The notes beneath the pieces are model-generated. The model made no database searches and was not told the DNA's origin. It saw only the letters and a list, made by a program, of their open reading frames with translations. A program made the translations under genes and the position numbers. 5,299 nucleotides of DNA from an uncultured Eubacteriales bacterium (GTDB lineage Bacteria > Bacillota_A > Clostridia > Peptostreptococcales > Anaerovoracaceae). Position 1 is the first letter of the stretch. Each line of letters opens with the position of its first letter. Where the stretch lies: positions 1-5,299 of the forward strand of contig CACYHM010000080.1 of the NCBI GenBank assembly GCA_902774195.1, read 5' to 3'. Positions 94-4,656 of the stretch are shown here, one piece after another.

Positions 94-993
94 CTATTTC
101 CCTTTGCTGCTCAGACTGCGTGCGCCCGATGAGATCTCCGTGATCTCCTGGGTTATCGCATTCTGTCTCAGGTGGTTGTACTGTTTTTCGAGAGCGTCAA
201 GCAGGTCGCTCGCGTTGTCGTTGGCCGAATCCATCGCCATCATCCTCGCGTTCTGTTCGGACGAATAGCTGTTGACAAGCGCCGAATACACATACCCGAC
301 CATGTACGACTGGATTATCCTCTCGAGCACCGTCTCGACATCCGGTTCGTATTCGAAAACAGTCGAAGCGTCTTTGTCCGTCTCTTCGCCCTGCGGCACG
401 AAGTCGTCTCTGTCGAAAGGGATCAGTCTGTCGTGCATCGGCACTCCCGCGCTCATGCTGCCGCCGTACTCGGTATAGCAGACATATATCCTGTCGAAGT
501 CTCCCTTATCGAAGTCATCGAGCAGTTCCATCGTTATGTCCCTTGCCATGGCAAGCGACGGCTCATGCATGGAGTGCGTGAAGGTCTCGCACACATTGGC
601 TCCGCGGCTCTTGAAGTACCTCCAGCCGTAGTCGCCTACTACGTAGAGCCTGTACTCGTCGCTCCTGTCGATCAGCGTCTGGGTCTCTTTCAGGACGCTC
701 TGGTTGTACGCGCCTGCAAGGCCCTTGTCGCCCGTGATCACGAGTATGGCGTTCCTGCCTCCCGCAACGTTCTCATCGACGTCGGCGTCGTAATATCTGC
801 TCGAAAGGTCCGTGCCCACGGCAAACATCCTGCGGATCTCGCGCCTGAGAAGATCGAAGTACGGCTTCGTGTCCTCGGCCTCGCGGCGCGCCTTTCTCAT
901 CTTGGTAGACGAGATGAGGTACATCGCGTTCGTGATCTTCTGCGTATCGCCGACGCTGTGTATTCTGTTTTTTATCGCTTTGGTGCTTGCCAT
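94..993 (-). CDS. atpG: F1 ATP synthase subunit gamma (central rotor shaft)
   Basis: Gamma is the asymmetric shaft that rotates inside the alpha3-beta3 hexamer and couples the c-ring to catalysis. The 299-residue product has the N-terminal helix ASTKAIKNRIHSVGDTQKIT-NAMYLISSTKMRKA (1-35), the Rossmann-like core beginning ILVITGDKGLAGAYN (83-97), and the C-terminal helix SSEQNARMMAMDSANDN (244-260) ending in the family signature ITQEITEISSGA (280-291). Length is slightly above E. coli (287), the extra residues being an acidic insertion around 200-212. The ATG at 993 overlaps the atpA TAA by one base, so translation is probably coupled; only a modest AAGAAAG precedes it. The gene ends with TAG followed at once by TAA. 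Expected fully functional, with no oddity in the conserved contacts. Confidence 0.96.
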   Translation of the reverse strand: MASTKAIKNRIHSVGDTQKITNAMYLISSTKMRKARREAEDTKPYFDLLRREIRRMFAVGTDLSSRYYDADVDENVAGGRNAILVITGDKGLAGAYNQSVLKETQTLIDRSDEYRLYVVGDYGWRYFKSRGANVCETFTHSMHEPSLAMARDITMELLDDFDKGDFDRIYVCYTEYGGSMSAGVPMHDRLIPFDRDDFVPQGEETDKDASTVFEYEPDVETVLERIIQSYMVGYVYSALVNSYSSEQNARMMAMDSANDNASDLLDALEKQYNHLRQNAITQEITEISSGARSLSSKGK

Positions 994-2741
994 TACGAAA
1001 CTTTCTTATAATTCTCTCTGAATTTCGCGGAGATATCGATGATCTCCTGCTTGAGCTCATCGTCCATCTGTCCTGTCGAATCGATGCGGTCGCAGATATC
1101 CTTGTGCTCCGTCTCGAACATGCCGATCAGCTCTTCGATGAACTTGCTCACATCATCAGGCGCTATGCCCTGCATCGTGTGAGCGAGCGCCATCACGAGG
1201 GTGATGACCTGCTCGTGCTGGCTCTTCGGCTTGTACTGCGGCTGCCTCAGCATGCGCATGAGGCCCTGGCCGTACTCGAGCTGGGCCCTGGTCTGATCAT
1301 CAAGGTCTGACGCGAACTGCATGAAGACCTCCATCTCGCGGTACTGCGCAAGGTCGATCCTCAGTGTGCCGGCAGCCTTCTTCATGGCCTTCGTCTGAGC
1401 GTCTCCTCCTACACGGGATACCGAGAGTCCGACGTTGACGGCCGGTCTCTGGCCCGAGAAGAAGAGGTCAGACTCGAGGAATATCTGTCCGTCGGTGATG
1501 GATATGATGTTCGTAGGTATATATGCCGATACATCGCCTGCCTGAGTCTCGACTATAGGCAGTGCTGTGATCGATCCGCCGCCCTTCTCATCCGACATCC
1601 TCGCGGCTCTTTCGAGCAGTCTCGAATGCAGATAGAATACGTCTCCCGGATAAGCCTCGCGGCCCGGTGACCTGTCGAGCAGCAGAGACAGCGCACGGTA
1701 AGCGACAGCGTGCTTTGAAAGGTCGTCGTATACGATCAGCACGTCTTTGCCCTTGCTCATGAAGTACTCTGCCATTGCGCATCCGGCGTAAGGCGCGATG
1801 TACTGAAGCGGCGCAGAATCGCTCGCCGAGGCGGACACGATGATCGAGTTGTCCATCACTCCGTGCTTTATGAGAGTCTGCTGTATGCGGACTACGGACG
1901 AGGTCTTCTGGCCTATCGCCACGTAGATACATATGCAGTCCTTGCCCTTCTGGTTGATGATGGCGTCGACGGCGATGGCCGTTTTACCTGTCTGCCTGTC
2001 TCCTATGATCAGCTCTCTCTGCCCCCTTCCGATAGGGAACATCGAGTCGATCGAGAATATGCCCGTCTCAAGAGGCGTGTCTACAGGCTGCCTGTCGAGT
2101 ATTGCCGGCGCCGGAGTCTCTACAGGCAGATAGCCCGAAGCCTCGATCTCGCCGAGCCCGTCTATCGGGGTGCCGAGCGAATCGACGACCCTGCCGAGGA
2201 AGTTCTCGCCCACCGGAGTACCGGCGGTCTTGCCCGTCCTCTTTACGCTTGAACCCTGGACGACGTCCTCATCGTCATTGAAAAGGATGCAGCCGATCTC
2301 GTCCTCGCGGATATCCTGTACCATGCCTCTGACCCCGTCCGTGAAGAGCAGGATCTCGCCGTATGTGGCGTTATCCAGTCCTTTAACGGTCGCGATGCCG
2401 TCTCCGATGGTCTTGACTTCGCCCACCTGCTCGGCAAGCGCCTCCGGAGTCCACGAAGCGATCTTCTCTCTGAGAAGAGGGATGATGTTTCCGTTCTCAG
2501 TCGGCACTTCGGCCAGGCTTTCTCTCAGCTGACGGAATCTGCCGCCGACTGACCAGTCGTAGACATCCGAACCGACTTCCATCCTGAAGCCTCCCGGGAA
2601 CGCATCGCTTTTGATCCATTCCGGAGTTATGTCCTGTCCGTATTTTTTCTTAAGGAATTCCCCGAATCTCGCCTGCTGCTCTTTGCTCGGCTCTGCAGCC
2701 GAATACAGCTTTGCGCTCAGGTTCTTTTCTTCCTTACTCAT
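993..2741 (-). CDS. atpA: Fusion of delta C-terminal domain with F1 alpha subunit (582 aa)
   Basis: Alpha is the non-catalytic nucleotide-binding subunit of the F1 hexamer. From about residue 79 the protein follows E. coli alpha with a constant offset of 78: beta-barrel domain, Walker A GDRQTGKT (247-254), YDDLSKHAVAYR (338-349), arginine finger Arg443 in SVSRVGG, and a helical C-terminal domain; a loop near 383-388 is ~11 residues shorter. Residues ~8-77 are extra and match the C-terminal domain of delta/OSCP: LYSAAEPSKEQQ, KKKYG, then FPGGFRMEVGSDVYDWSVGG and RFRQLRESL, against the E. coli delta end ([39 protein letters not shown]). The normal alpha N-terminal helix (NIIPLLREKIASW) is retained straight after it. 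The ATG at 2741 is chosen over upstream in-frame ATGs because AGAGGAGG (2755-2748) lies 6 bases before it. The stop and the atpG start share a base (TAATG). The frame is open throughout, so this is a true in-frame fusion. Confidence 0.95.
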   Translation of the reverse strand: MSKEEKNLSAKLYSAAEPSKEQQARFGEFLKKKYGQDITPEWIKSDAFPGGFRMEVGSDVYDWSVGGRFRQLRESLAEVPTENGNIIPLLREKIASWTPEALAEQVGEVKTIGDGIATVKGLDNATYGEILLFTDGVRGMVQDIREDEIGCILFNDDEDVVQGSSVKRTGKTAGTPVGENFLGRVVDSLGTPIDGLGEIEASGYLPVETPAPAILDRQPVDTPLETGIFSIDSMFPIGRGQRELIIGDRQTGKTAIAVDAIINQKGKDCICIYVAIGQKTSSVVRIQQTLIKHGVMDNSIIVSASASDSAPLQYIAPYAGCAMAEYFMSKGKDVLIVYDDLSKHAVAYRALSLLLDRSPGREAYPGDVFYLHSRLLERAARMSDEKGGGSITALPIVETQAGDVSAYIPTNIISITDGQIFLESDLFFSGQRPAVNVGLSVSRVGGDAQTKAMKKAAGTLRIDLAQYREMEVFMQFASDLDDQTRAQLEYGQGLMRMLRQPQYKPKSQHEQVITLVMALAHTMQGIAPDDVSKFIEELIGMFETEHKDICDRIDSTGQMDDELKQEIIDISAKFRENYKKVS

Positions 2742-3228
2742 GATCCGCCTCCTCTGCAGCATCGAGGAACTGATCGAACGCATCAGAAGCCGACTGCTCG
2801 AGGGCGAGCTTTTCGACCGCGCCCGTGACCATGTCGCTTATCTCCTTCTGAGCCGAAGCGATTATCTCGCTCTTTTCCCTGTCGGCCTCGGTCCTCGCGT
2901 CCGCAACGATCTTCTCGGCTTCGCTCTTCGCTTCGCCGAGCCTGCGTTCGCGTTCTTCCTCGACCTCTTTGCTCATTTTGCTCTTCTCGTCCCTGATCTT
3001 TGTCTCAAGATCGCTGACCTTCTTTTCGTATTCCTGCTGACGGTTCTCAGCCTCGGCAAGAGCCTGAGTCGCCTTGCTGTCCATGTCAGCATAGTACTCG
3101 TCCCTCTTTGCCATGAAGTCCTTCACCGGCTTGTAGAGGAGGATGTACAGCGCGCCGAAAAGAATGGTGAAGTTGAACAGATGGAGCAGTATTTGCTGCC
3201 AGTCTATATTAAGTGGTACACCTGTCAT
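2734..3228 (-). CDS. atpF: F1Fo ATP synthase subunit b (peripheral stalk)
   Basis: A 164-residue b subunit, normal in length. It has a short N-terminus (MTGVPLNIDWQQ), one transmembrane helix at about 12-32, and the typical exit motif LLYKPVKDFMAKRDEYYADM. A long, highly charged Ala/Glu/Lys/Arg helix follows, running to near the C-terminus and expected to form the dimeric right-handed coiled coil of the peripheral stalk. In characterised enzymes the C-terminal end of b binds the C-terminal domain of delta; here that domain is found on the next protein (atpA), so b should dock directly on the fusion. The start at 3228 has AGAAGG (3243-3238) 9 bases upstream. The stop overlaps the start of atpA by 8 bp, which implies translational coupling. 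It is not itself fused to delta, unlike the mycobacterial b-delta protein. Confidence 0.95.
   Translation of the reverse strand: MTGVPLNIDWQQILLHLFNFTILFGALYILLYKPVKDFMAKRDEYYADMDSKATQALAEAENRQQEYEKKVSDLETKIRDEKSKMSKEVEEERERRLGEAKSEAEKIVADARTEADREKSEIIASAQKEISDMVTGAVEKLALEQSASDAFDQFLDAAEEADHE
2748..2755 (-). promoter_or_regulatory. Ribosome binding site that fixes the fused atpA start
   Basis: The minus strand reads AGAGGAGG here, then CGGATC, then ATG at 2741. It is the strongest Shine-Dalgarno match in the window at an ideal 6-base spacing. It lies inside the 3' end of atpF. Its importance is that it places translation initiation upstream of the delta-like domain, showing that the extension is translated and is not an artefact of choosing the longest frame. 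Confidence 0.85.
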
Positions 3229-3266: not shown

Positions 3267-3686
3267 CTAGAGTACGAATATTATCAGTATTACAACGAGC
3301 AGGGCGTAAATGATGGCCGTCTCGATGAATACAAGTCCAAGCATGAAACTCGTCCTGATCTTACCGTCCGCTTCAGGCTGTCTCGATATGCCCTCGGCAG
3401 CCTTGCCTCCGGAAATACCCATGCCGATGCCGCCGCCGCAGGAAGCGAGTCCGATCGCGATACCTGCTGCAATAGCCTTGAGTCCTGTCGTGTTGTCTGC
3501 TGCATCGTTTCCGGCTTCGGCGATATATCCGTCTCCGGAATCCTCAGCCGTAACAACAGCGCTGCCCTTGTCCGTGCTTCCGCTGTCTGCGAACGCTCCG
3601 ATGGTCGCGACTGTGCCCATGATGAGGATGATGACTCCGAGCACGACCGCCAGTCCTGTAAGTTTCTTGAGATTCAGATTAAGCAT
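3267..3686 (-). CDS. atpE: F1Fo ATP synthase subunit c with signal-peptide-like N-terminal extension
   Basis: Subunit c forms the rotor ring of Fo; each copy carries one ion-binding carboxylate. At 139 residues it is ~50-60 longer than the usual 70-90. The canonical hairpin occupies about 69-138: helix 1 with the glycine-rich [12 protein letters not shown] (84-95), the polar cytoplasmic loop SRQPEADGK (101-109), and helix 2 with Glu122 in [10 protein letters not shown] as the ion-binding residue. Before it lie KK at 7-8, a hydrophobic stretch (9-31), an AFA-D site (31-34) like a signal peptidase I cut, and an acidic, Gly/Ser-rich linker (34-68). Such an export segment fits the known topology, with both ends of c outside. 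The Na+ pattern of Ilyobacter (Gln32, Glu65, Ser66) is only partly kept: Met at the Gln position, Glu-Thr at Glu-Ser. The ATG at 3686 has AAAGGAG (3701-3695) 8 bases upstream. It lies between atpB and atpF. Confidence 0.95.
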
Positions 3687-3731: not shown

Positions 3732-4640
3732 TCAGGCCGTCCTGTGTCTGCGGACGACCGTGGTGCGTTTTCTTCCCGGCCTCGCAGGCGGCTGCTTGGC
3801 CAGTCTGTGGTTCTCCTTGTTATCTTTAGGCGCTTTCTCTTTCGGTGTATCGTCAGATACCTTGCCGTAGAAGAGCGCCGTCAGCATGGTAAGCACGTAT
3901 GCCTGGATCACCGCATGAAGCAGAGTGAAGAGCACTCCCACCAGCACCGGCAGCACGTAGCTGAGCGCGGTGTAGTAGTATACGAGCTCGGTCACGAGGG
4001 CTCCCGAGAGCAGAGCTCCGAAAAGCCTGAAGCTCATGGAGATCGGAAGCGAGAACTCCTTGAGAGTCTCTCCTATCCCCTTGAGGCCGTTGCCGATTAT
4101 GCCTCCGGACAGTATGACCAGATACGAGAGGCAGCCCATCATGATCGCTCCGTTTATGTCCGAGCATGGCGCCGGAAGCGATATAGGCGTGCCGGCTGTG
4201 GTCATTACCTGCAGCCCGAAGAGTTCGAACAGCGTGCCCGTGAAGATATACGCGCCGGTCGCGAAGATATATGCACCGAGGAAGCTGTTGATCTTCTTCG
4301 AATTGCTCTTCGCCATGTTGTCGAAGAGACCGACGACCGTTTCGAGTATCGTCTGGAACTTTCCCGGCACCATCGTGAACTTCGGTATGAAGAATATCCT
4401 GCATATCAGTGCGAATACTATCAGCAGGCACGATACGATGATGGCCGCGATGAATCCCGGATTGACGTCCATGATGCCGAAGAGACTGACCTTGTTCATG
4501 TCATGCAGGACAGCGTCCCTCATGACCTCCTGTATGGTCTCCTTCTTTTCGACTTTGCCGACAAGTATAGCCGAGATCATGAAGACCATGGCTATGACGG
4601 CAAATATCAGGGCCGTTTTTTTCCTTTGCTGTTTTGTCAT
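3732..4640 (-). CDS. atpB: F1Fo ATP synthase subunit a, with extra N-terminal membrane segment and basic C-tail
   Basis: Subunit a is the membrane stator that forms the two half-channels for ions against the rotating c-ring. Numbering from the upstream ATG at 4646 (304 aa), the family marks are VPGKFQT at 94-100, the essential arginine Arg207 in MSFRLFGALLSG (E. coli Arg210), and VIQAYVLTMLT at 246-256, which keeps the E. coli Gln252 equivalent. E. coli Asn214 and Glu219 are both replaced by alanine. Two additions are visible: a lysine-flanked hydrophobic segment at about 11-30 ahead of the first canonical helix (about 64-86), and a ~40-residue basic, Pro-rich tail (about 263-304) ending VVRRHRTA. 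Two ATGs, at 4646 and 4640, compete. The AAAGGAG at 4656-4650 is 3 bases from the first and 9 from the second, and other genes here use 6-9, so 4640 (302 aa) is preferred. It is the first gene of the atp operon and no atpI precedes it. Confidence 0.95.
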   Translation of the reverse strand: MTKQQRKKTALIFAVIAMVFMISAILVGKVEKKETIQEVMRDAVLHDMNKVSLFGIMDVNPGFIAAIIVSCLLIVFALICRIFFIPKFTMVPGKFQTILETVVGLFDNMAKSNSKKINSFLGAYIFATGAYIFTGTLFELFGLQVMTTAGTPISLPAPCSDINGAIMMGCLSYLVILSGGIIGNGLKGIGETLKEFSLPISMSFRLFGALLSGALVTELVYYYTALSYVLPVLVGVLFTLLHAVIQAYVLTMLTALFYGKVSDDTPKEKAPKDNKENHRLAKQPPARPGRKRTTVVRRHRTA

Positions 4641-4656
4641 AAGCATTGACTCCTTT

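Follow-up and report, generated by a model that had tools for sequence, protein, structure and literature searches.

In the F-type ATP synthase, the delta subunit (OSCP) normally occurs in one copy per enzyme, and the alpha subunit is present three times. The closest described systems to the locus reported here are a laboratory construct and a few natural proteins. In the engineered deltaDeltaN-alpha FoF1 of Bacillus PS3, whose structure was solved in 2025 (PMC12229609, Nat Commun; PDB 9JC1), one to three stalks were found, and the H+/ATP ratio was 5.8 versus 3.0 (PMC12229609). By gel, this enzyme has two a subunits on average; triple-stalk particles were few in cryo-EM, for which the authors blame dissociation during grid preparation, and ATP-driven proton pumping was below that of the wild type (PMC12229609). 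According to the same laboratory fusion, the N-terminal domain of delta is symmetry-breaking (PMC12229609). Acidaminococcus fermentans and the UniProt entries G4Q3K6 and A0A1I2C5T3 have, or resemble, a natural fusion without this domain, and the multi-stalk arrangement built in the laboratory is so far only suspected for natural fusions (PMC12229609). The first-pass annotation of our locus knew of no characterised delta-alpha fusion; the engineered 9JC1 enzyme and the natural A. fermentans fusion in PMC12229609 overturn that statement. Beyond this paper, no natural delta-alpha fusion, including in Mogibacterium, was found among the matches listed in searches of open-access main texts.

The fused atpA frame and its operon

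The window, that is, the whole stretch of 5,299 nucleotides that was analysed, contains the following features, all on the minus strand.

94..993, minus strand: atpG, subunit gamma (PF00231, E = 1.6e-82)
993..2741, minus strand: atpA, fused delta C-terminal domain and alpha, 582 aa (PF00213 plus ATP-synt_ab_N, ATP-synt_ab and ATP-synt_ab_C; TIGR00962, 728 bits)
2454..2486, minus strand: N-terminal helix of alpha, retained, at residues 86-96 (alpha subunits align from residue 86; model)
2487..2507, minus strand: short linker, residues about 79-85, from the last delta-domain helix to the alpha N-terminal helix (full-length model)
2508..2714, minus strand: delta/OSCP C-terminal domain, residues about 10-78 (PF00213, AlphaFold2 model, Foldseek)
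2734..3228, minus strand: atpF, subunit b, 164 aa, without a delta domain (PF00430, E = 1.2e-15; aligns with PS3 b)
2748..2753, minus strand: AGGAGG ribosome-binding site of atpA (read from the sequence)
3267..3686, minus strand: atpE, subunit c, 139 aa, its N-terminus extended by a signal-peptide-like stretch (PF00137 on residues 72-135)
3732..4646, minus strand: atpB, subunit a, 304 aa, with the motif RLFGALLSG (PF00119)

The gene order is a-c-b-[deltaCTD-alpha]-gamma, and rplQ also lies in the window; in the relatives L007 and L008, the operon runs on as a-c-b-alpha-gamma-beta-epsilon. The frame of atpA begins with an ATG at 2741, 8 bases inside the end of atpF (stop codon TAA at 2734-2736), and its 582 codons are open down to 993. 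The strong ribosome-binding site seen in the first-pass annotation is the AGGAGG at 2748-2753. That annotation had also read this frame as a delta C-terminal domain joined to alpha, and the profile searches bear it out: positions 97-172 of the 172-position PF00213 (OSCP) profile match residues 2-76 (E = 1.4e-10), and TIGR00962, the equivalog of the F-type alpha, aligns from residue 85 with 728 bits against a cut-off of 484. The comparison of the N-terminal piece with PF00213, which the annotation had suggested, gave a significant match: the 79-aa piece scored 42.0 bits on its own and 37.1 within the whole protein, both above the cut-off of 22.3. All three of the delta/OSCP C-terminal motifs that the annotation had listed, RFRQLRESL among them, were found in atpA. 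A canonical alpha would start at approximately residue 79-86 of the product. The PF00213 match begins at profile position 97; the N-terminal six-helix domain of delta is thus missing from the fused chain. No OSCP match was found in the atpF product by profile search.

The structure predictions agree with the profiles. The 79-residue domain was modelled by AlphaFold2 with a pLDDT of 84 and the element order E-H-E-E-E-H, and its top Foldseek match is the delta subunit of Bacillus PS3 (6n2y_I; TMq 0.69, E = 4.7e-05). Of the 50 best matches, those ranked 1 to 42 all belong to ATP synthase entries, and 18 matches have E ≤ 0.001; also listed are the mycobacterial b-delta and entries from E. coli, mitochondria and chloroplasts. 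The full-length model places about 8 residues between the last delta helix (65-77) and the alpha N-terminal helix (86-96). This model has a mean pLDDT of 67, and parts of the conserved core of alpha are of low confidence; since that core was poorly predicted, only the N-terminal part of the model was used.

Distribution of the fusion

The N-terminal 85 residues match 249 protein clusters at E ≤ 0.01, and PF00213 together with an alpha domain was found in all 120 of the 120 clusters among the matches listed. Eight named loci of metagenome-assembled genomes (MAGs), annotated as Mogibacterium, Clostridiales, Clostridia and Lachnospiraceae and with sources including sheep ileum and horse faeces, carry the fusion. 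A fused frame was detected in at least 29 of the 393 genomes sampled from the order of G002, in at least 16 of 146 from that of G008 and, when the phylum was sampled evenly, in at least 5 of 398. All three figures are minimum counts, as PF00213 failed to pick up G008, which is fused. In L008, on the most distant branch, PF00213 gave no match at E ≤ 0.1, and four proteins of that branch are without a precomputed PF00213; the delta domain there is recognised solely through its likeness to other fused copies. A protein search started from L008 yielded 4 proteins out of 85 candidates.

The added domain is under purifying selection: omega was 0.09-0.26 in 9 of 10 pairs of close relatives (the remaining pair was saturated), and that of the alpha core was 0.03-0.07. 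Judged by the E-value, the 249 clusters and this selection, the identity of the atpA N-terminus as a delta domain is beyond chance. The first-pass annotation had allowed that the junction might occur in this one genome only and had proposed looking for it in related genomes; it recurs across many MAGs and the 249 clusters, in two orders (at least 29/393 and at least 16/146). An assembly error or a frameshift that merged two genes accordingly has a negligible probability: nothing was seen that speaks for it, and the 249 clusters, the eight MAG loci, the two orders and the purifying selection already refute it.

Separate delta genes and second alpha genes

No separate delta gene exists in the window, as the first-pass annotation had held for the operon, and none was found above the PF00213 cut-off in 32 fused relatives (8 + 24), where the only second match was that of G003. 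Those 32 genomes do not include G666 or the remaining fused members of G008's order; for the window's own genome, the absence of a delta gene outside the window is judged from these relatives. G003 is a single MAG with two different fused operons (L012 and L016); it may be a mixed assembly, because L012 groups with L054 of another genome.

A search for alpha in 48 fused genomes gave exactly one alpha, the fused one, in 37 of them, a second alpha of normal length in 10, and the two fused ones in G003. Because of the second, normal-length alpha, the fused enzyme is not the sole one in 10 of the 48 genomes (G618, G860, G898, G905, G930, G538, G792, G849, G870 and G921), and their cells likely contain two F-type enzymes. 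The gene rnfC was above the cut-off in 45 of the 48 fused genomes; only fused genomes were surveyed, so that this count is without weight as a marker of low-energy metabolism. In L047 and L048, delta is a separate frame of 160 aa whose C-terminal domain is normal and whose N-terminal part is highly divergent; the presence of that part led us to reject them as stand-alone delta C-terminal domains.

Evolutionary origin

Alpha-core trees were built from 111 and 138 rows. The 111-row tree left out the duplicates L009-L011, L013-L016, L077 and L107 and the short L025, and the 138-row tree left out the same loci plus L012, L073 and L074. In the 138-row tree, one clade (99% SH-aLRT) is composed of 47 truncated window-type fusions, L117 and L080, and the separate-delta alphas L116 and L122. 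Another separate-delta alpha, L121, adjoins this clade (95%), and the other separate-delta alphas fall outside. An inner clade (99%, 138-row tree) unites 42 of the truncated fusions, that of the window among them. L117 and L080 have a full-length delta, with its N-terminal part, in frame with alpha (667 and 666 aa, respectively), and are apparent intermediates. The likely order of events is that a separate delta became a full delta-alpha fusion, from which the delta N-terminal domain was lost once or twice; because forks near the base of the clade are open, this order is one that we infer. Fusion may also have been repeated inside the window clade. The order of G002 has, in addition, a 31-row clade of normal separate-delta alphas outside the window clade. 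Since this order has many such alphas outside the clade, the operon as a whole has probably been transferred between orders.

The relationship to the Acidaminococcus fusion was examined using LpxC as a marker to reach the large class containing such fusions, which we take to be Negativicutes from the placement of Acidaminococcus. At least 23 of 150 sampled genomes in this class have alpha frames of 589-649 aa (G1051 not counted), and 19 of these 23 were fetched, plus G1051. All 19 have delta C-terminal-like sequence ahead of alpha, as judged by eye and not by a profile. G1051, with a frame of 594 aa, was rejected as a fusion: its delta and alpha are ordinary and separate. Profile A2, of window-type domains, found no fused frame in 320 genomes of this class at E ≤ 1e-5; the class of G428, which was also searched, comprises 2 genomes only.

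In the 138-row tree, the 19 Acidaminococcus-type loci form one clade (100%), which is nested with 12 separate-delta alphas of their class (100%). Forcing both fusion types into one clade gave a delta lnL of 191 and a p-AU of 9e-167 in a test with 59 rows, which were hand-picked from the 138, the grouping being named after the first tree had been inspected. As one shared clade costs 191 log units, a single origin shared with the Acidaminococcus fusion was rejected, and the fusion arose at least twice. Judged from these trees, the window fusion is a second origin, independent of that of Acidaminococcus.

Changes in subunits c and a

The c subunits of the window clade have 74-111 residues before the RQP motif in all 41 loci in which c was found. 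This distance is 34-46 in the full-length fusions (2 loci), a second fused group (5 loci) and the Acidaminococcus type (19 loci), and 33-74 in 42 separate-delta loci, 3 of which are at 60 or more; all of these lengths were measured from the first in-frame Met and are upper estimates. The extension of the window clade looks like a signal peptide and a polar linker ahead of the usual hairpin. In subunit a, the residue after RLFG, which we take to be equivalent to N214 of E. coli a, is Ala in all 42 window-clade matches. It is Asn in all 29 other matches to the pattern, only 6 of which are from separate-delta loci, most such loci being short; this survey of c and a left out the duplicates and L012. 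The half-channel of the a subunit may, from this residue, differ in the window clade.

A possible multi-stalk enzyme and its alternatives

The sequences establish the fusion, the lack of delta's N-terminal domain, a single gene for b, the selection and the origin independent of Acidaminococcus. The operon encodes a genuine F-type ATP synthase in which delta has lost its N-terminal six-helix domain and its b-gripping C-terminal domain has become the N-terminus of alpha. By analogy with the engineered enzyme, it is rather probable that the delta C-terminal domain of each alpha docks b2 directly, permitting more than one stalk. Because alpha is present three times, three docking domains would replace one, a consequence that the first-pass annotation did not draw; each alpha would carry its own b-docking site beside its N-terminal helix, and b2 would be anchored straight to alpha, as that annotation had supposed. 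More than one b2 + a stalk could assemble once the threefold axis is free of the delta N-terminal domain. With extra stalks, more ions would be moved for each ATP, and ATP synthesis would become possible at low ion-motive force; in the direction of hydrolysis, more ions would be pumped per ATP. A further step, which we propose tentatively and hold at somewhat less than an even chance, is a natural three-stalk enzyme, in which up to three b2 and three a would surround one c ring and multiply the ions per ATP. Such an enzyme would have arisen twice in anaerobes (in the clostridial lineage of the window and in that of Acidaminococcus), here through a full delta-alpha that shed its N-terminal domain, and with a remodelled a subunit and an exported c extension.

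The most serious alternative is an ordinary single stalk: of the three delta domains, one would bind b2, either because a and b are limiting or because the first stalk disfavours others, and the gain would be a covalent, dissociation-proof attachment, in line with the covalent peripheral stalk of the first-pass annotation. The window operon has one atpB and one atpF gene, so that an enzyme with three copies of both a and b would depend on a matching supply. The rarity of triple-stalk particles in the cryo-EM of the engineered enzyme (PMC12229609) points the same way, as do L117 and L080, which keep an N-terminal part that could occupy the axis in a single copy only. However, the engineered enzyme, with the same domain order, forms multiple stalks and averages two a subunits by gel (PMC12229609), and at least two lineages have independently lost the N-terminal domain, a loss that a mere tether would not require. 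We consider the single stalk possible but doubtful.

The remaining alternatives fare much worse. If internal initiation or proteolysis left only some of the alpha with a delta domain, the 1:3 ratio would be restored, and the window does have a GTG at the junction (codon -20). However, this GTG occurs in 13 of 45 loci and is accompanied in those 45 loci by none of the ribosome-binding motifs tried; AGGA precedes any candidate internal start in 3 of the 45 only (L008, L114 and L119), at differing places. With no consistent start across the 45 loci, an internal start yielding unfused alpha is unsupported, and this explanation is very unlikely. Membership of the N-ATPase family, with the delta C-terminal domain moved from b to alpha, might be suspected from the b subunit, whose best matches are PRK14474 (E = 5.3e-16) and TIGR03321 (E = 1e-15), both below the cut-offs, and from positions 181-244 of TIGR03321, which weakly match the 79-aa piece (E = 0.0014). 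Against it, alpha scores 586 bits versus a TIGR03324 cut-off of 750, the N-ATPase-like alpha L074 lies outside the 52-row window clade of the 111-row tree, the delta domain scores better against true delta families, and the genes run a-c-b-alpha-gamma in the window and, in L007 and L008, continue to beta and epsilon. An N-ATPase origin via a b-deltaCTD protein was rejected by the alpha scores and the tree, and its probability is close to nil.

The fusion is found in a group of gut bacteria in which, by analogy, each enzyme could in principle hold up to three stalks. If evolution made the same change twice in anaerobes of low energy yield, the number of stalks may set the ion/ATP ratio, like the size of the c ring. 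The window lineage makes this question directly testable, as it offers many species, apparent full delta-alpha intermediates, and ten genomes with a normal alpha beside the fused one.

Comparison with known systems

The mycobacterial b-delta (PDB 7JG5, 7NJK and others) has the same delta C-terminal fold and is likewise a fusion of delta to another subunit; however, it joins delta to b, whereas the window has a separate b gene (2734-3228). The N-ATPase resembles the window in having a delta C-terminal-like domain without a separate delta gene (PMC11738941), and differs from it in carrying the domain on b, in belonging to another alpha clade and in its gene order. The b subunits of L073 and L074 are N-ATPase-like: they are 249 aa long and match the delta C-terminal domain weakly. 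For Chloroflexus aurantiacus (PDB 9ITJ series), delta is deposited as 12 chains in 6 entries and b as 72 chains in 18 entries, averages of two and four per entry, and these chain counts by themselves suggest two natural stalks; its delta is a separate protein of 157 aa, unlike that of the window. No paper on this enzyme was found in the open-access literature.

The kind of fusion is known. Within the scope of our searches, no description was found of an independent and widespread second lineage of it that has apparent intermediates and altered c and a subunits. What is new here is the second independent origin, the full-length delta-alpha relatives resembling intermediates, and the changes in c and a. 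Either G4Q3K6 or A0A1I2C5T3 could belong to the lineage of the window. The Acidaminococcus type (G993/L153 and 18 further loci) has, like the window, the order a-c-b-[deltaCTD-alpha] and no delta N-terminal domain in the chain. Its tail before the delta domain is longer than that of the window type, and unlike the latter, it has a c of usual length in 19 of 19 loci and Asn after RLFG in 17 of 17.

The PS3 construct is the nearest in architecture. Its chain 9jc1_I (580 aa versus 582) lacks the delta N-terminal domain and has the delta C-terminal domain directly before alpha with a short linker, as in the window, and aligns colinearly with both window domains (12-562 to 8-562, E = 7.6e-178). For the N-terminal 147 residues, 9jc1_I is the sole chain covering the delta domain among four at E ≤ 1e-6, and by this alignment, the window linker is three residues shorter than the engineered one. 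The construct is man-made and also has the C-terminal domain of epsilon removed; stalks were counted there, whereas the window is known from its sequence.
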